DNA of 57,055 nt, from positions 1 to 57,055 of the IMG/VR virus record IMGVR_UViG_3300049216_000159; one strand, written 5' to 3'. Of this stretch, positions 46,518 through 55,267 are shown in pieces; position 1 is the first letter of the stretch; every line of letters starts with the position of its first letter. The notes under the pieces were generated by a model, which searched no databases, had not been told where the DNA came from, and worked only from the letters and a program-made list of their open reading frames with translations. The DNA comes from a virus. The position numbers and the translations under genes were made by a program.

Positions 46518-46738
46518 GCTGCGATAGCCTCTTCGATCTGAACCGCCGGCCGCTCGCCGTCGATCTTCTTCAGTGCCAGTTCTGCAAAGCATCCCGCCAA
46601 GCCGATAATCCGGTAGTACGGATGCTCGAAAACGTCCACCAGCAGACACCGGCACGCGTTTCTAATGGGGCCGACCGAACCGAAGTTGGGCGCGGCCGGA
46701 TCAATGACCATGACGATGTCGCCGGGTGAGAACTTCAT
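46514..46738 (-). CDS. Small beta-barrel-like early protein
   Basis: Seventy-four residues: [21 protein letters not shown] at the start, as in KOW/SH3-like barrel proteins, and a helical end. Encoded just upstream (in transcription order) of the next coupled genes and directly downstream of CsrA. Possibly an RNA-interaction accessory; not recognised. Confidence 0.5.
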
Positions 46739-46923
46739 AAACGCTCCTGCGGGACTAAAGCGTCCCGGTCTTTGGCTTCGCGGATCTCCGGCCGGTCGAC
46801 GCGCACGTCGGGCGGTGCCTTGATGCCGATCCGGACTTGGTTGCCGTTGACGGCGAGGACGGTGACGAGAACGTCTTCGCCAATGCAGACCGTTTCACCG
46901 ACGCGACGCGTGAGGATCAGCAT
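46735..46923 (-). CDS. csrA: Phage-encoded CsrA carbon-storage regulator
   Basis: A 62-residue protein: [43 protein letters not shown] is a textbook CsrA, including Arg-Arg-Val-Gly-Glu and the Gly-Ile-x-Ala-Pro core that bind GGA RNA motifs. Chosen start 46923; the longer frame merely overlaps the upstream gene. It could bind phage or host mRNAs post-transcriptionally, for example repressing host translation early in infection. Overlap of seven bases with the preceding gene. Confidence 0.93.
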
Positions 46924-47503: not shown

Positions 47504-49116
47504 TTCTTGGACTTGGCTTTCTTTGCGACTTTCGCCGGTGCAGTGACCTTCGGCACATCCGCCTTGACCTTCTTGACGTCGACGCCGAGCGTTTTCGCAG
47601 CCTTGGTCAGCTGCGCGACCTCCGCATCCAGATCAGACGGCAAATCCTCGATCAGCTCCAGTTCGAATATCAGCTGACGCAGCTGGCTGTCGGTAAGCTT
47701 CGGGACCTTATCGAAACTGTCGGCGTCCCAACCCCAGGCCGTGAAGAACCCCTGCGGCACGTTGTAGGCATTGTCGATCTGACGCTCGACGAGTTTCAGG
47801 AGCGTCGCGCGCTCGATCTGCGTCGGCGCATTCTTGTGGATCGCGATCAGCAGCCGGTCGCGAAAAGCGGTCTGCTCGGCCTCCTTCGCGGGATCAACCT
47901 TCTTTCTCGGCAACGCGCTGCCGTAGGGTGAACTGCCCTTGGCGTGTTCCTCAAGCGTGCCGAGCTTCCGTGCGGCTTTTACGGCCTCGTCCATCTTGAC
48001 GACTTCGACAATCTCGCCGGTCTTCGGCATCTGCAGGAGTTGGATGACGTCGGACTTCTTGCCGAGCAGCTGCTTGAACGTGCGACCCTTGGCGTCTTGG
48101 GTGCAGAACCGATCCAGCGTCGCGAAACCATTGGTTACCCAGCCGCCGGGCGCTACCTTCTTAGCCTCTGGTCCCACGATCACCGCGCGGCCGGATTGTT
48201 TGGCCTCGGCGATCTGCAGCTTTGACCAGACTTCGCGCTTGAGTTTGAAGCAGGCGGGATCTGTGCAGACGTCTCCACTTTTGATGTCGGCGAACAATTC
48301 AGGATGATTCCCGGTGCGTTTCGGGCAGGGACCGCAGGCGCCGGCCTTCGGCAGCAGATCGGCATCACCCGTCGGAAAGCTCGCATCAGCCAGGCGCAGC
48401 ATGTACTCGCGCTCGATGAAGTCGCGCGCTTGGCGATACGACATCGGCTCACCGTCATACCCCTGCGTGATTTTGCCGGCCGCCTCGCGCTGGCTGGCCG
48501 GATCCGCCATGCGAGACAGCAGCAACGCCGTGGAGGCGGTGAGCTTGCCGCGATAGAACATTTCGCGCGCCGCGGGTCCGAGCGCCGAGAGTTTCATCCG
48601 GCCGTAGACGTAGGATTTGGACTTGCCGACCTTGTCCGCAATTTCCTCGGCGGTATGCCCGAGCCGCTGCAGCTGCTCGTACCCTTCAGCCTCCGCCAGC
48701 TCGTGCAGGCCTTCGCGCTGCAGGTTCTCGACCAGCTGGATCTCCAGGACCTGCTCGTCGGTCAGCTCGCGCACGTCCACCGCGATCGCCTCGAGGCCTG
48801 CGGACTTCGCCGCCATGAAGCGCCGCTCGCCGGCGACGATCTCGAATGTATTCTTCGCGGCCTCCTTGGCCTCATCAGGCGAGAAGTAAGTCTTGCCGCC
48901 AACACGAATGCCATTCAACCCTGGGGTGCTTACCATCGGCACGTTGCGCGCAATGATCGGCGACAGCAGCCCCAGCGTCTTGATGCTCTCGCCGAGTTCC
49001 TTGATGGCCGCTTTGTCGAAATGGGCCCGGCGCTCGGCCTGGGAGCCGGTTTGCGAAAGCGTAAGGGCGTCGAGCGGAATATGCCGCACGCTGCCGAGTT
49101 CGACGTTGACACTCAT
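47500..49116 (-). CDS. Large ParB/KorB-like protein of the DGR operon
   Basis: A 538-residue protein starting in an ATGA overlap with the reverse transcriptase stop. Residues 1-110 are a ParBc domain (HIPLDALTLSQTG, GLLSPIIARNV, IVAGERRFMAAKSAGLEAI). Residues about 125-215 form a helix-turn-helix block (LQREGLHELAEAEGYEQL, AEEIADKVGKSKSYVYGRMKL). A four-Cys motif (ACGPCPKRTG ... CTDPACFKLK) lies near 275-305, and the end is Lys-rich. Long phage ParB-like proteins of this type are regulators or plasmid-like partition proteins; translational coupling to the RT is notable. Confidence 0.85.
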   Translation of the reverse strand: MSVNVELGSVRHIPLDALTLSQTGSQAERRAHFDKAAIKELGESIKTLGLLSPIIARNVPMVSTPGLNGIRVGGKTYFSPDEAKEAAKNTFEIVAGERRFMAAKSAGLEAIAVDVRELTDEQVLEIQLVENLQREGLHELAEAEGYEQLQRLGHTAEEIADKVGKSKSYVYGRMKLSALGPAAREMFYRGKLTASTALLLSRMADPASQREAAGKITQGYDGEPMSYRQARDFIEREYMLRLADASFPTGDADLLPKAGACGPCPKRTGNHPELFADIKSGDVCTDPACFKLKREVWSKLQIAEAKQSGRAVIVGPEAKKVAPGGWVTNGFATLDRFCTQDAKGRTFKQLLGKKSDVIQLLQMPKTGEIVEVVKMDEAVKAARKLGTLEEHAKGSSPYGSALPRKKVDPAKEAEQTAFRDRLLIAIHKNAPTQIERATLLKLVERQIDNAYNVPQGFFTAWGWDADSFDKVPKLTDSQLRQLIFELELIEDLPSDLDAEVAQLTKAAKTLGVDVKKVKADVPKVTAPAKVAKKAKSKK

Positions 49117-50381
49117 GGGTTCCCCTTTCGTAAGAATTGCCGCAGCCACGGAAATTCGAGGCCGATCCGCCTTCGGACTTTCCAGGTGCTGGCGTGACTG
49201 AAATGACCGGCGTAGCTTGCGATGACCGATCGCAGCTTCTCTTGCGCCGCCGGCCGCGATTGATTGCGCATCGGCCAGGTTCGAAGCTTCTGGCGCAGAT
49301 GTCCGATGACGCGCCGGCGCACCACTCGATGGCTTGGGTAAATGACGTAGCCCAAGAAATCGCAGCCAGCGGATAGCGGCTTGAGCTTGACGTCAGCTTT
49401 GAGCTCTAGCCGCAGGCGAGATCGCAGGAATTGCGTGATCCCCGTGTGCCAGGCCTGCAGCTGCTCCCGGTCCCGATGGACCATCACAAGGTCATCGACG
49501 TACCGAAGGTACCGCTGCGCTTTCAGCTCATGCTTGACGAATTGATCCAGCGCATCGAGGTAGACGTTGGCAAAGAACTGACTGGACAGGTTGCCGATCG
49601 CCAGCCCGCATCCCGGTGCCGCATTCTCCAGGCGTTTGTGCGCAGGAACCTTGGCGCGCTCGGCCTCTGTCCCGATAAACGTGACGCCGCCGGCGACCGG
49701 TGACTGCTTGAGCAGCGCGTGCGTTGCGCGGCGCGCCTCGATCGGCAGGCCTTGTATCCGCGCCTTGAGCATCGCATACAGCGTCGGCCGATGAATGGAG
49801 TTGAAGAAATTGCGGATGTCCAGCTGCAGGTACCAGCCGCCGCCTTGGCCGGAGTGCACCTGGCGCATGAAGTCGGTCAGGCGGTCAACGGCGGCGTGAG
49901 TGCCTTTGCCTTGGCGGTTTGAGTAGCTGTCGAAAATGAACTTGGGCTCGTAGATCGCCTCGAGCTGCGGCACCAGCCAGTGATGCACGACGCGATCGCG
50001 AAACGGGGGCGCGTGGATTTCGCGCGCTTTTGGCGCCGTCGCGATGAAGCAGGTCGGCTTGCCCGGAGTCCAGCTGCCTGCCACGAGATCCCGCTGCAGC
50101 TCGATCAGCCCATCGATCCAGTAGGCATCGAAGCTCAGCTGATCAGGGCTCGGTTTCTTGCCGCGGCGGGCCCGCGCCCAAGCAGAGTGGAGGCTTCGGA
50201 AAGAAACCGCGTCGCGACACTCACCGGCGCGAACCGCGCGAACGTGGTTGTGATTCGTCTGGTTGTTCCTGTTGACGTTGCCATTGTGCAGGTTGACGTT
50301 CCACGCGTAGTCCGAGGGAAACGCTAACTCAGGCACTTTCGACCCTGATGCACATCCGTGTGGGTAGCGCATCCTCGTCAT
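49113..50381 (-). CDS. Diversity-generating retroelement reverse transcriptase, with TR in its 5' coding region
   Basis: A 422-residue RT: motif A LQLDIRNFF (Asp 188), the DGR-typical IGNLSSQ (262-268), YVDD (294-297) and CDFLGYVI (340-347). ATG 50381 overlaps the Avd stop (ATGA). Residues 22-53 are encoded by the 96-bp TR itself. No ATG, GTG or TTG occurs in frame between the TR and the RT domain, so translation must pass through the TR, giving an N-terminal tail that mirrors the variable lectin end. It copies TR RNA with adenine errors; cDNA replaces the variable repeats. Confidence 0.95.
   Translation of the reverse strand: MTRMRYPHGCASGSKVPELAFPSDYAWNVNLHNGNVNRNNQTNHNHVRAVRAGECRDAVSFRSLHSAWARARRGKKPSPDQLSFDAYWIDGLIELQRDLVAGSWTPGKPTCFIATAPKAREIHAPPFRDRVVHHWLVPQLEAIYEPKFIFDSYSNRQGKGTHAAVDRLTDFMRQVHSGQGGGWYLQLDIRNFFNSIHRPTLYAMLKARIQGLPIEARRATHALLKQSPVAGGVTFIGTEAERAKVPAHKRLENAAPGCGLAIGNLSSQFFANVYLDALDQFVKHELKAQRYLRYVDDLVMVHRDREQLQAWHTGITQFLRSRLRLELKADVKLKPLSAGCDFLGYVIYPSHRVVRRRVIGHLRQKLRTWPMRNQSRPAAQEKLRSVIASYAGHFSHASTWKVRRRIGLEFPWLRQFLRKGNP
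50223..50318 (-). repeat. DGR template repeat (TR), 96 bp
   Basis: Sense orientation contains 26 adenines, mostly in nine AAC/AAT codons plus CAC, TAC, ACG, AGG. It aligns base by base with VR1 (50834-50929) and VR2 (51431-51526). The 3' 22 bases (GTTCGCGCGGTTCGCGCCGG) contain no adenine and are the GC-rich initiation segment; right after it TR reads GTGAG where both VRs read GTCAG. The whole repeat is in frame with the RT, codons 22-53. Confidence 0.97.
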
Positions 50382-50806
50382 GTGGTTGCCTCATGGGCGA
50401 CCTGAGTACTCAGTGTTTGGGCACGCTGCGAGGGATCGCGATCCTTCGCATTCTGGCCACTCGACTGCAATTTCTTCAGCCAGCCTCCACTCTGCTGCCC
50501 TAACTCATTGACCATCTTGGCGAGCGCCTCAAACTCGGCGAAGCTGCCGAACGCCTTGACCGCTTTGCCCAGCTGCATCGATATCTTCAGATCATCGACG
50601 GCGCTGCAGAGCTCCTCGACCCGCGCCAGGCGCTGATTGGGATCGCGCCAAGCCTTGTGCACGCACCGGGCGACTTGCATCGCATAGGCGCGAAGATCCG
50701 CACCGATGCTGTACTTGTGATACCGCGGAAACCGCCGCACGGCGTTCTCCACATCGGTCAAGATGCGGTGAGACAGCCGTGCTATGGGCGGTGCGCGGTT
50801 AAACAC
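50378..50806 (-). CDS. avd: Avd-like accessory variability determinant
   Basis: A 142-residue basic, helical protein from GTG 50806. ENAVRRFPRYHKYSIGADLRAYA, AVDDLKISMQLGKAVKAFGSFAEFEAL and LGQQSGGW are the conserved helices of DGR Avd four-helix-bundle proteins, which form a positively charged pentamer that binds the RT and TR RNA. The C-terminal 30 residues are hydrophilic and variable. It lies between the two targets and the RT, in order. Confidence 0.93.
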   Translation of the reverse strand: MFNRAPPIARLSHRILTDVENAVRRFPRYHKYSIGADLRAYAMQVARCVHKAWRDPNQRLARVEELCSAVDDLKISMQLGKAVKAFGSFAEFEALAKMVNELGQQSGGWLKKLQSSGQNAKDRDPSQRAQTLSTQVAHEATT

Positions 50807-50809
50807 AGG

Positions 50810-51391
50810 TCAGAGTCCAAGGTCCAAGGGCTGACCGGCGCGAACCGCGCGAACGTGGCCGCGACCCGGCTGGCCGTTCCTGTTGACGAGGCCAAAGTGC
50901 AGGTCGACGAGCCACGCGCAGTCCGAGGGACTTTCCGCATCGACCGTCGAAGTCCATTCCCATGACGAACCGCCGGCATCAAATTCCGAATACAGCGCGG
51001 GGCCGACCTTCGAATAATCGACGATGGACACCCGTTCTTTGACCGTCGGCGCGCGCCAGCCGTCCTTGCCAAAAAGGCGATACTCGGCGCAGGCCTTGAG
51101 CGCATCTTTCCAAGCGAGTGAGCCGCATTCGAGCGGCGCGATGGTCCAGGTGAGATTCGTCTGCGCGTCGTAGACCGCGACGCCACCGGTCGTCACGACA
51201 TTGCCGTGAAGGTCGTAGCGGGTGAAGCGCGGCGGTTCCGCGGCCGTGGCTGCCTCTACGGGCTTGCCGGGCGTCGGCGGCGCCTCATCGTTGGCGCAGA
51301 TCGAGGCGGCGATCGCGAACAGGTCCGCCGCGCTGGCCATCTGGATTCGATCAGCGAGCAGCTTGCGGATATCGCGGGCGAGTGCATTCAT
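50810..51391 (-). CDS. DGR target 1, DUF1566/C-type-lectin variable protein
   Basis: A 193-residue protein. Residues 1-55 are a helical then Pro/Ala-rich N-terminal part of unknown role, not a signal peptide. The lectin-like DUF1566 domain follows: LTWTIAPLECGSLAWKDAL, DGWRAPTVKER, SSWEWTST, ending in HVRAVRAG. Residues 155-186 are the VR; positions 4, 7, 9, 12, 14, 16, 18, 19, 21-25 of it can vary. AGGAA precedes the ATG by nine bases. Encoded away from the tail genes. Confidence 0.92.
   Translation of the reverse strand: MNALARDIRKLLADRIQMASAADLFAIAASICANDEAPPTPGKPVEAATAAEPPRFTRYDLHGNVVTTGGVAVYDAQTNLTWTIAPLECGSLAWKDALKACAEYRLFGKDGWRAPTVKERVSIVDYSKVGPALYSEFDAGGSSWEWTSTVDAESPSDCAWLVDLHFGLVNRNGQPGRGHVRAVRAGQPLDLGL
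50834..50929 (-). repeat. Variable repeat VR1
   Basis: Differs from TR at 16 of 96 positions, every one at a TR adenine (sense strand). The other 10 adenines and all 70 non-adenine positions are unchanged. A 6-bp inverted repeat (50808-50813 with 50831-50836) lies immediately 3' of it. Confidence 0.97.
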
Positions 51392-51421
51392 GGTTGTGGT
51401 TCCTGTCGCAATGCCAAAGGT

Positions 51422-51850
51422 CTAGTACTGACCGGCGCGAACCGCGCGAACGCGGCCGTGAAACGCCTGGTAGCGCCTGCCGACGTAGCCAAGGTGCAGG
51501 CCGACGACCCACGCGCAGTCCGAGGGAGCTTCAGCATCCGGAGTGGAAGTCCAGATCCACTCGTAGTCCTCGAAGTCGGGAAAGAAGCTTTTGTCCACCG
51601 CCGGATACTTGGAGCGATCCGGAATGAACATTGCTTCCTCGACGGTCGGCAGTCGCCAAGACCAGCCATAGATGTCGAGGGATTCGGCCCATTCCTTGGC
51701 TTTCTTCCAGGTCAGTTGGTTCGGCGCATGCAGCGCAGTGACGATGAACGGCGTTGCGAGCATCGGATGGCTGATGCGCACGGCTTGGTGGTCGGTGGCA
51801 TCTGCGGGTAGATCGGTGCCGTCGGCGGCGAGTTTGGTGTAGGTGGTCAT
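51422..51850 (-). CDS. DGR target 2, DUF1566/C-type-lectin variable protein
   Basis: A 142-residue protein from ATG 51850, with AAGGGA upstream. After about 45 residues a DUF1566 lectin-like domain appears: NQLTWKKAKEWAESLDIYG, WRLPTVEEA, EWIWTST, ending HGRVRAVRAG. Residues 109-140 are the VR. Shorter N-terminal region than target 1 and no similarity there, so the two targets present the same variable end on different bodies. Confidence 0.93.
   Translation of the reverse strand: MTTYTKLAADGTDLPADATDHQAVRISHPMLATPFIVTALHAPNQLTWKKAKEWAESLDIYGWSWRLPTVEEAMFIPDRSKYPAVDKSFFPDFEDYEWIWTSTPDAEAPSDCAWVVGLHLGYVGRRYQAFHGRVRAVRAGQY
51431..51526 (-). repeat. Variable repeat VR2
   Basis: Differs from TR at 19 of 96 positions, all of them TR adenines; no other base differs. 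A 4-bp inverted repeat (GGTC at 51419-51422 with GACC at 51430-51433) lies at its 3' edge. Confidence 0.97.
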
Positions 51851-51879: not shown

Positions 51880-52992
51880 CTACGATGCTTCGGCTTGCGC
51901 CTCGAGCGAGGCCATGCGGTCGTGGTAGAACGCCTCGACGTTGAGCGGAACCATCGCCAGCGAGTTCTGGATCGCTTCCCAGGCGTTGCGCAGCTGCTCG
52001 ACATCGGTCGGCGCCCTCAGTGCGGCGACCAGAGTGTCCGCGTCGACCGGTGCGAGCCGTCGCGCCGCGCCTTCCGAAGCCTCTTTCAAGCGAGCCTTGT
52101 CGGGCGCCTTGGCGGACTTCCACAGTTCGCCCCGGCGCTTCTCCAGCGGGGCGAGCTCATCGCTCGATACACATTTGGCGTAATCGGCCACGAGCTCGTC
52201 GATCCCCGATGCGCTCTTGTCGCCGCCGGCGGCCCAGCGCGCCAGGCGCTCGCCGATCTCCTCGGAGAATTGCACGGGATTCGTCCGATCAAAGATTGGG
52301 GCGAACTGTGTCGGCAGCTTCATGACCGCGCGTTCGCTGTCCATGGATGATTGCCAAACCGGCTTGCCGTCGGAGCCTGGTAGCAGCAAGGCCTGCAGCA
52401 CCATCTCGTACATAAACTCATCGCCGCAGATCGGCTGCCAGCCGAGCGGCACCGGATCCTTGCCGGGCACAATCTTGATTTTCTCTTTCGCGCGGAAGGT
52501 CATGATCAGGTTGACGTTCAGCTGCAGCAGTTCGTTGATGAGACGCCGGCGCGCGGTTTTGGGCGGTCCCCACGCGGCCATCTGCGCTTTTTCGGGCGAC
52601 GTCTTCCAGCGCTTGGCGAGCGCATCGGTCTCGGTTTTGTGCCATTCCAGCACGCCTCCCGGACCTTCGTGCTCGTGACTCATTGAGTCGATGATCACGG
52701 TCTTCGATCCGCGGCGCGCGCAGAAACGGACCGCCTCAAGGTAATCGTCGGGCGAGAAAGGCGCGCCGAATCGCAGATGGTTGAACTTGAACCTGTCTGC
52801 GTAATACAGCGCGCGACCGTTTTCGGTGTCGATGAAATCGATGTCACCACCGCACACTCGCTGGATGCCGGTGGCCAGGCGCAGCGCGGAGTAGGTCTTA
52901 CCGCTCGAGGACGGACCGACCAAGCCGATGAGCAGGCCGACCGTCTTGCGCACGGCCGGTGCGATTTCAAATTGTCGTACGGATGCATTCAT
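51880..52992 (-). CDS. RecA/Sak4-like AAA ATPase
   Basis: A 370-residue protein. Walker A is GPSSSGKTYSALRLA (about 25-39), the Walker B/Ser region KTVIIDSMSHEHEG (about 96-109), and RFGAPFSP, LINELLQLNVNLIMTFRAKEK are typical of the Sak4-type single-strand annealing and recombination ATPases. The C-terminal 120 residues are helical. With the exonuclease encoded next upstream in transcription, it forms the phage homologous-recombination pair. Confidence 0.88.
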   Translation of the reverse strand: MNASVRQFEIAPAVRKTVGLLIGLVGPSSSGKTYSALRLATGIQRVCGGDIDFIDTENGRALYYADRFKFNHLRFGAPFSPDDYLEAVRFCARRGSKTVIIDSMSHEHEGPGGVLEWHKTETDALAKRWKTSPEKAQMAAWGPPKTARRRLINELLQLNVNLIMTFRAKEKIKIVPGKDPVPLGWQPICGDEFMYEMVLQALLLPGSDGKPVWQSSMDSERAVMKLPTQFAPIFDRTNPVQFSEEIGERLARWAAGGDKSASGIDELVADYAKCVSSDELAPLEKRRGELWKSAKAPDKARLKEASEGAARRLAPVDADTLVAALRAPTDVEQLRNAWEAIQNSLAMVPLNVEAFYHDRMASLEAQAEAS

Positions 52993-53855
52993 GCAGCTTC
53001 ATCTCCAATTTCTTGATTGATGACGTATTGCGGCGGAATCAGGGTGATCGCGCCGTCGGTGTAGCCGGGCCAGGGATAACTGCCCTCGGTCAGCAATTTG
53101 TCCCAGAGAGTCAGGGCTCGATTCCAGCGCCGCTGGCCGATCTCATGGTGATAGCCGTCGAGACGCGCGGGCACGACTTCGTAGGGCGGCTCGGTCTCGC
53201 AAAAAAGAAAAACGAAATCGGTGCGGCCGACCGCGTCCGGAAACAGTTGCTCGTAAGCGCGCGTGTAGGCCACGCGCTGGATGTCGTAGCCGTATTCGAC
53301 GATCTTGCGCGCGATGTCCTTCGGGTTCGCGGACGCCACCTTCTTGATGTCGTAAATGGTGTGATCGTCGCGAAACTGATCGATGCGACAGCGGCAGAGT
53401 ACTTCGCGATCGCGTTTCCACTGGTCGGCGTAGTCGGTGAATTCGATGGCGACTTCCGAGTGACCGCCGAACGGGAATCCCTGATCCTTGGCGTTCTTGA
53501 AAATGCGCTCGGCCGCGAAGGCAAGCTTTTCGAATTTGTGCGCCAGAATGGCGATCTTGCCGCCGGCCTGAATGATCTCGCGCGCATCTTTGGCCGCCTT
53601 GGTGCGCCAATCGTCGGCGACCACCATCTCAAATTGCGCGCCGGCGCCGAGCAGCAGCTTATGCAGGATTGCGCCTTCATCCATGGCGTTGGTCGCGACG
53701 CGGTCCACGTTACCACCCAAGCGCGGATGCTCGAGCCAGGCATGCCGGGGCGATTCGGTCACCAGCGTGTGGGCGATGGACTGCGTCAGGGACGGCCGCA
53801 CGCAAGGATCCGCGAAGTACTGCGCCTCGGTGACGTTGAGGATTTGAGCGCTCAT
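52989..53855 (-). CDS. PD-(D/E)XK exonuclease of the recombination module
   Basis: A 288-residue protein from ATG 53855. SPRHAWLEHPRLGG at the start, AILHKLLLGAGAQFEMV, AEVAIEFTDYADQWKRDREVLCRCRIDQFRDDHTIYDIKKV with the Asp...Asp-x-Lys triad is the YqaJ/RecE/DUF3799-type alkaline exonuclease (the segment quoted spans about residues 143-183). It produces 3' single strands for the annealing ATPase encoded after it. ATGA overlaps on both sides. Confidence 0.9.
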   Translation of the reverse strand: MSAQILNVTEAQYFADPCVRPSLTQSIAHTLVTESPRHAWLEHPRLGGNVDRVATNAMDEGAILHKLLLGAGAQFEMVVADDWRTKAAKDAREIIQAGGKIAILAHKFEKLAFAAERIFKNAKDQGFPFGGHSEVAIEFTDYADQWKRDREVLCRCRIDQFRDDHTIYDIKKVASANPKDIARKIVEYGYDIQRVAYTRAYEQLFPDAVGRTDFVFLFCETEPPYEVVPARLDGYHHEIGQRRWNRALTLWDKLLTEGSYPWPGYTDGAITLIPPQYVINQEIGDEAA

Positions 53856-54715
53856 GCAGCGTGCTTCATCCCAAGTTTGGCCTCGTGATAGGGCAGAGAC
53901 ACAGGCAATCCTTCTAACGTGCGCCACTTCGTGTACAAATCAATCAAGAACATCTTGACCATGTAGCGCATCGCCATATTGTGGCGCCGGCCCTTGCTTT
54001 TTTCGGCGTGGCCGGGATGTTGCTCAAGCCTATGTTTGTAGCCGTCGTAAATGTCTCGGTACTTGTTGGGCGTCGCTTTTAGAAAACTCGATGCGAGGAC
54101 ACCAACCAATTTGGTTTTGAGAAACGGATTGAACGTGATCCCGTTGCGCTTCGCCGCTTCGCCGTCCTTGTTGATGTAGTAGCGCTCGACAAGATGTTCT
54201 GTCCTGCGGCTTCGTCCTTTGCCATCGCCCGCGACGTCCAGACCGGCGTACTTCCAAAGACTGGATGGATGTCGCGCTTTCGCAATGTCGATTTCACTGA
54301 TGATGACGCCAGCCATCGCAGGGCCAATGCCTTTGATCGGCTCTAGGAATTCATTGAAGATGGGGAAATCCTCAAGAACCGCGGTTAGCCGCCGAAAATG
54401 TTTTTTCTCCTGGTCATCGAGTTCAACGTATTCCGCGATCAAGCAGAGTTCGGTGTATGAATCGATGACGCCGTCTGCCTTGAACTTGGCGCGCACCGGA
54501 AACTTTGCCACGCCATCGGTCAGCAGTTTGTAATGCTTGCGCAGGCGATCAAGAATTTCGCGACCCTCGGCGTCGATGGAATATTCGTCAGCGCCAGGCG
54601 CTTGGCCTAGTTTCACCTTAAATGTTCCCACGATCCGATTGCCCATTTGGATTCGCAATTTCTGGATGTCGTAAGCACCGCGCACCATCGTCTTCAAATT
54701 GTCTCGATTGTTCAT
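53852..54715 (-). CDS. Stand-alone IS110-type transposase C-terminal domain protein
   Basis: A 287-residue protein from ATG 54715. Residues about 130-235 match the Transposase_20 end of IS110-family enzymes: FLEPIKGIGPAMAGVIISE, SSLWKYAGLDVAGDGKGRS (Ser-containing loop), NPFLKTKLVGVLASSF and a basic terminal region. The RuvC-like DEDD N-terminal half of IS110 transposases is absent; residues 1-130 are helical and different. It is preceded by the 54718-55267 repeat array. The last array unit (AGCGAGACA) abuts the ATG. I infer an RNA- or DNA-binding role. Confidence 0.75.
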   Translation of the reverse strand: MNNRDNLKTMVRGAYDIQKLRIQMGNRIVGTFKVKLGQAPGADEYSIDAEGREILDRLRKHYKLLTDGVAKFPVRAKFKADGVIDSYTELCLIAEYVELDDQEKKHFRRLTAVLEDFPIFNEFLEPIKGIGPAMAGVIISEIDIAKARHPSSLWKYAGLDVAGDGKGRSRRTEHLVERYYINKDGEAAKRNGITFNPFLKTKLVGVLASSFLKATPNKYRDIYDGYKHRLEQHPGHAEKSKGRRHNMAMRYMVKMFLIDLYTKWRTLEGLPVSLPYHEAKLGMKHAA

Positions 54716-54717
54716 GT

Positions 54718-55267
54718 TGTCTCGCTTAGTGTCATTGGGTTGCTGAAGTTTCTTGGCGCGCTTGTTCACTGCGGGTTACTGCAGTCCAACGGCACGCTAA
54801 GTGTTTTTGGGCTTCTGTGGTTCTCTGGCACGCTTCGCGTTGATTGGGTTACTGGTATCTCATGGCACGCTAGGCATTGATGGGCTTCTGACGCGAGATG
54901 GCTCGCTTGATCATACTGGGTTACTGCAATCGACTGGCCCGCTCGATGATCTTGGGTTGCTTGAACCGCATGGCTCGCTGACACTGCGTGGGTTGCTTTA
55001 GACTGCTGGCTCGCTGAGATTACGTGGGTTACTACTGACTTCCGGCTCGCTCGTATACCTTGGGTTGCTTCTCCATCGTGGCTCGCTAAATGCGAGTGGG
55101 TTGCTGTGCTTTCTTGGCTCGCTTCACCAGAATGGGTTGCTGGAACGCCGTGGCGCGCTTCTAGATACTGGGTTGCTGTACACGGTAGGCTCGCTGTGTG
55201 CCCCTGGGTTGCTCGGTAAGGATGGCTCGCTGAGAGGCGTTGGATTGCTACTTCATGCTGACTCGCT
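54718..55267 (-). repeat. Regular 9-base repeat / 9-base spacer array
   Basis: Read leftward, 31 nine-base units alternate between AGCGAGCCA-like and AGCAACCCA-like forms, separated by spacers of exactly nine bases (one of ten); every spacer is different. Conserved units are strict at the A/B alternation and lack T; variants such as AGCGTGCCA, AGTAACCCA, AGAAGCCCA concentrate near the gene end. The period of 18 does not match helical phasing. The array is not CRISPR-like. It occupies most of the 54716-55307 gap, immediately 5' of the transposase-domain gene. Confidence 0.95.

Follow-up and report, generated by a model that had tools for sequence, protein, structure and literature searches.

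A phage DGR with its template repeat inside the reverse transcriptase reading frame and a putative RNA scaffold around it

In the DGR described here, the template repeat (TR) lies within the coding sequence of the reverse transcriptase (RT), and comparison with relatives indicates that the path from the RT start codon through the TR is kept open and that the RNA around the TR is kept paired. The phage record that carries the DGR is 57,055 bases long, and the whole of it is referred to as the window. We assign a probability of about 80% to the reading that this is an adenine-mutating DGR with its TR in the RT coding sequence and that one transcript is both translated and folded as a template scaffold. 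Ribosomes finishing avd would restart at the overlapping ATG of the RT gene, and leader, TR and RT would be translated as one protein with a disordered tail of ~55 residues. The same transcript would fold by pairing between the avd end and RT codons 54-56 (P1), between the avd end and codons 16-18 (P2) and within codons 3-12 (P4), leaving the TR as a loop with fixed ends; Avd-RT would copy this loop into mutagenised cDNA destined for the VRs of the lectins, and a given RNA would be either translated or used as template. In a DGR lineage whose template RNA and RT mRNA have codons in common, and whose scaffold ends coincide with TR ends, it would become possible to test what sets the boundaries of the template and how RT synthesis and hypermutation are kept in balance.

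The locus and the position of its template

The gene set, encoded on the minus strand like all DGR features below, consists of two Lcl_C (DUF1566) target genes, avd, the RT gene and a ParB-like gene. Target protein 1 (50810-51391; PF07603, E 1e-19) and target protein 2 (51422-51850; PF07603, E 1.2e-14) each have an Lcl_C domain and carry VR1 and VR2, respectively, at their C termini; the likely start of target protein 2 is the ATG at 51850, as read from the sequence, and the mechanical ORF begins at 52123. The avd gene (50378-50806) is in the expected position and matches NF033474 (E 7.7e-11) and bAvd PF22296 (E 7e-7), each match falling short of the curated cut-off. The RT ORF (49113-50381, 422 codons; PF00078) has the DGR-type motifs IGNLSSQ and YVDD and an RT fold from about residue 56, with the BPP-1 DGR RT (8ub7) as its best match in both sequence and fold (fold E 1.8e-24, TM 0.88). 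The RT stop overlaps the likely ParB-like start as ATGA (49113-49116), so that stop-start overlaps link avd, RT and ParB in series.

The TR (50223-50318) differs from its VRs at adenines only: over a 97-nt core, there are 16 mismatches to VR1, all at TR adenines and none elsewhere, and the differences to the VR2 core are likewise confined to TR adenines. Repeat comparison places the copies of family D1 that contain VR1 and VR2 at 50817-50956 and 51414-51553, the former in register with the TR copy at 50206-50345. Such A-only TR/VR pairs are found in the window and in 60 of 63 loci. The locus thus combines an A-only TR/VR pair, an RT of the DGR clade, Avd and a VR at the C-terminal end of a C-type-lectin-like target. 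The presence of two divergent VRs suggests mutagenic retrohoming activity, and past activity only.

The earlier note on this DNA had placed the TR at RT codons 22-53, and the coordinates bear this out. It is preceded by a translated leader (50319-50381, codons 1-21) and followed by a linker without a start codon (50202-50222, codons 54-60), and its reading frame is the lectin frame of VR1 and VR2. The in-frame starts ATG1, ATG4 and GTG16 all lie upstream of the TR, and the next, GTG100, falls within the RT domain; as had been claimed, therefore, no in-frame ATG, GTG or TTG occurs between TR and RT domain, nor indeed anywhere between codons 17 and 99. The ATG at 50381 was likewise correctly described as part of an ATGA overlap with the avd stop (50378-50381). 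We infer that the RT N terminus is Met1, upstream of the TR.

Selection on the open reading frame

Relatives were collected by scanning viral contigs with the whole RT, which gave 579, of which 80 were kept; the comparison set comprises 83 non-redundant loci with RTs at least about 57% identical. As a guard against bias to full-length matches, bacterial genomes were additionally scanned with the RT core alone, which is blind to the tail, and the TR lies within an open RT frame in all 26 RTs at an identity of at least 57%, mainly from Lysobacterales.

All 83 loci can be read without interruption from the ATG across the TR into the RT. In-frame stops in relatives, which the earlier note had named as evidence that would speak against its proposal, were looked for in this clade, and none was found among the 4765 codons between the ATG and the RT core in 76 loci, the window included. 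All 76 loci with an ATG-overlap start, again including the window, have it as ATGA with the upstream stop; outside this count stand four loci that are truncated at a contig end or have no ATG, and one with a different overlap. In L007, the leader starts with GTG instead of ATG.

It is important to point out that the lectin frame of the TR stays open for the sake of the lectin itself, and therefore only the leader, the linker, length variation and frameshifts bear on translation of the RT. The leader alone has no stops in frame (0/1060), compared with 19/1101 and 4/1076 in the other two frames, and from the TR end to the core there are 0/346 stops in frame versus 0/286 and 12/303 in the others. 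The distance from the ATG to the core takes 22 values across the 83 loci, all multiples of three, with about 45 length changes on the tree. Four loci (L044, L047, L054 and L087) read the TR in a frame other than that of the lectin and regain the RT frame downstream of it, so that a different, Thr-rich tail is encoded; L087 is placed on the tree at a long distance from L044, L047 and L054, which means that this arose at least twice. Eight further loci had been flagged as frame-shifted by regex anchors and were rejected when their translations proved to be in the lectin frame.

These observations weigh on the possibility that the RT starts downstream of the TR, or at its 3′ end, from a non-canonical codon, and that the open frame is a by-product of lectin frame and GC content. 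In its favour, the TR is necessarily open, similarity to other DGR RTs sets in no earlier than about residue 56-61, distant relatives begin their RTs inside the TR or directly after it, and several relatives, the window excluded, have a GTG in the TR 3′ end as a possible start. However, leader and linker are outside the lectin constraint and free of stops, while both other leader frames and one other linker frame contain them; the length changes in multiples of three and the restored frameshifts require translation, and the ATGA overlap is found throughout. We consider a downstream start very unlikely.

What is selected does not seem to be the peptide. According to the earlier note, the RT carries an invariant, Asn-rich version of the lectin end; translation through the TR is supported, but the sequence of the tail is not what is conserved. 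With four exceptions among the 83 loci, the tail reproduces the C-terminal end of the lectin, frame included, as would be expected if it were a functional part of the protein, binding, for example, the TR RNA or the lectin. Against this stand the loss of this frame in those four loci and the pN/pS of the tail (0.65-0.69 compared with 0.47 for the RT), values that have to be read with the TR codons also templating the lectin in the frame they share. Moreover, no fold is predicted for the tail (AlphaFold models RT residues 1-55 as disordered, pLDDT<50), and outgroup RTs are without it; a functional tail is the least probable of the readings weighed here. The restored frameshifts argue that the tail peptide is not the selected trait, and raised pN/pS and predicted disorder fit with this. 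The leader's pN/pS is just moderately below 1, and its third-position periodicity is weak. The dN/dS test across the TR that the earlier note had proposed was computed and set aside as unusable for deciding, the TR codons being lectin codons too. As judged from these comparisons, selection maintains an uninterrupted translatable path and not the Asn-rich peptide.

Covarying RNA pairs and a putative scaffold for the template

Third codon positions are constrained over RT codons 1-55, which include the leader, and return to background level after codon 57. This constraint is likely explained by RNA structure, since the same region contains a set of covarying pairings. P1 joins the 3′ end of avd (50412-50417, AACACT; consensus GANACT) to RT codons 54-56 directly after the TR (50216-50221, AGTGTC; consensus AGTNTC, contained in GAGTGTC, the first bases of the linker). 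Its variable pair is paired in 79 of 83 loci compared with 38 in shuffles (80/82 after correction), occurs in the states A-U, C-G, U-A, U-G and G-C, and has undergone 19 pair-state changes on the tree; the window itself has one A-C mismatch in P1. P2 pairs CTCAGGT in avd (50400-50406) with GCCTGAG in RT codons 16-18, directly before the TR (50328-50334); two-sided changes are seen in 7/7 pairs, and 97.6% are paired. P3 is a covarying hairpin at the avd/RT junction (50388-50398), of which the 3′ arm contains a Shine-Dalgarno-like GAGG, and P4 is a covarying hairpin within RT codons 3-12 (50347-50373).

For P2 to P4 taken together, there are 187 double-change cells compared with 29 in shuffles, and pairing stands at 96%, dropping to 22-51% when partners are slid. 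A tree-controlled test of independent pairs gave p 0.008 for one P2 pair, the remaining ones offering too few independent pairs for power. In the window, P2 and P4 form with sequences that differ from the consensus. The folding energy of the window RNA as a single sequence is not unusual (z 0.39), and its minimum-energy fold departs in places from the covarying structure. RNA duplex energy was dropped as evidence, GC-rich pairing being found everywhere, and covariation was used in its place. A 26-nt inverted repeat (81%) between 50181-50206 and 50471-50496 places avd opposite RT codons on either side of the TR and may be an extension of P1 pairing in the window.

Because the 3′ arm of P2 lies just before the TR and that of P1 directly after it, the TR would form the loop between these two arms; because P1 covaries and joins avd to RT codons beyond the TR, the RNA used as template must extend from avd through the TR into RT codons. 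One RNA therefore appears to serve both as mRNA and as template scaffold. That one RNA would serve as mRNA and mutagenesis template had been proposed in the earlier note, and the avd/RT-codon pairs covarying across the TR lend it support. These pairs probably act in template recognition.

Alternatively, translation of leader and TR could serve just for coupling between avd and RT, or the tail could be removed by cleavage, leaving the tail without a role and the template to come from a separate or processed transcript. This would agree with a tail that is weakly constrained and predicted to be disordered, and with two relatives (L105 and L106) in which the TR occupies a separate ORF that ends beside the RT start. 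The covarying P1, which pairs avd with RT codons past the TR, counts against it, yet a processed or separately started RNA is still compatible with P1; overall, we regard this alternative as unlikely, if less so than a downstream start. Returning to the single translated and folded transcript, a more specific version holds that the mRNA of the RT itself provides the mutagenesis template, that the scaffold includes the ribosome-binding hairpin and start of the RT, and that translation and templating may be mutually exclusive, with cis preference and self-limited hypermutation as the outcome. We put this forward tentatively.

Neither the window nor any of seven fused-clade loci examined was matched by an Rfam family; covariance-model searches included RF03018 (RT-15) for all of these and RF03022 (Phage_DGR) for the window. 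A CsrA site in the P4 loop was considered and dropped, as GGA occurs in just about half of the relatives. A gene for a CsrA-family regulator (PF02599, E 7e-21) lies at 46735-46923 (minus strand), a few kilobases downstream of the DGR, and a protein with a weak match to Transposase_20 (IS110-type; E 1.4e-4) is encoded at 53852-54769 (minus strand).

Relation to known systems and origin of the fusion

The DGR of the Bordetella phage BPP-1 (avd-TR-brt) resembles the window in the order of avd, TR and RT, in adenine mutagenesis and in RT fold, and there the 3′ end of avd and the spacer following the TR belong to the RNA (PMC12875486). Unlike in the window, its TR occupies a non-coding interval (1187-1320 of L162; brt starts at 1465), and its RNA family, RF03022, gave no match in the window. 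Beside the BPP-1 TR there is a P1-like complement, GCCATGC/GCATGGC (L162 1025-1031 and 1320-1326), and another at the TR end of L126; both are perfect complements of 7-9 nt between post-TR bases and upstream sequence, and they are a lead and not a test.

The TR has been described as intergenic 'in most cases' (Roux 2021, PMC8144416), and the earlier note had set the present layout against a usual non-coding one. The layout is real, but it had been listed already in 2012: overlap of the TR with the RT ORF end defines structural group 3 of DiGReF (PMC3521204), and the window locus, where the TR overlaps the RT ORF 5′ end as in that group, is a fused variant of it. In the accessible part of that account, group 3 rests on annotated positions, without tests of conservation, start site or RNA pairing, and separate transcription was inferred by its authors (PMC3521204); the lineage described here argues against TR and RT RNAs being generally transcribed separately. 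A literature search, largely of open-access papers, returned no account in which the TR is an obligatory part of the RT coding sequence. Coding conserved across the TR, restored frameshifts and an RNA scaffold of avd and RT codons appear to be new as far as the open literature shows.

DGRs with RT-15 RNA (RF03018) in Pseudomonas, Burkholderiales and phage Magia are like the window in having a structured RNA upstream of the TR and RT coding sequence that overlaps the TR. They differ in the RNA family and in that the RT reads the TR in a non-lectin frame, usually from an ATG inside the TR. Several Pseudomonas loci (among them L126, L129 and L139) apparently begin the RT from ATGATG inside the TR, in a non-lectin frame that gives a Thr-rich N terminus, with RT-15 RNA just upstream.

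A model of the leader RNA (R1) also matches five loci (L105 to L109) with RTs 46-51% identical (E 6e-13 for L105, 2e-7 for L106), in which TR and RT are unfused. L105 and L106, from a Tepidiphilus MAG and a Chromatiales MAG, share with the window the RNA element and an open leader-TR frame; unlike in the window, the ORF containing the TR terminates where the RT begins. The leader-TR frame of L105 is closed by a TGA overlapping the RT GTG (GTGA), and the leader-TR ORF of L106 begins at the end of avd and runs to a TAA immediately upstream of the RT ATG. On the tree, a single branch (SH-aLRT 99) separates the 83 fused loci from the rest. The simplest history, and in our judgement the most likely, is that an RNA element and a separate leader-TR ORF coupled to the RT, as in L105 and L106, would have come first, and that this ORF would later have lost its stop and become fused to the RT once, in phages and prophages mainly of Lysobacterales. 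In more distant DGRs, the stop of the TR ORF overlaps or abuts the RT start (GTGA, TAATG or TAATATG), as seen at 2940-2960 in L105, 2740-2996 in L106, 2734-2996 in L117 and 2690-2996 in L119; such overlaps suggest translational coupling across the TR.
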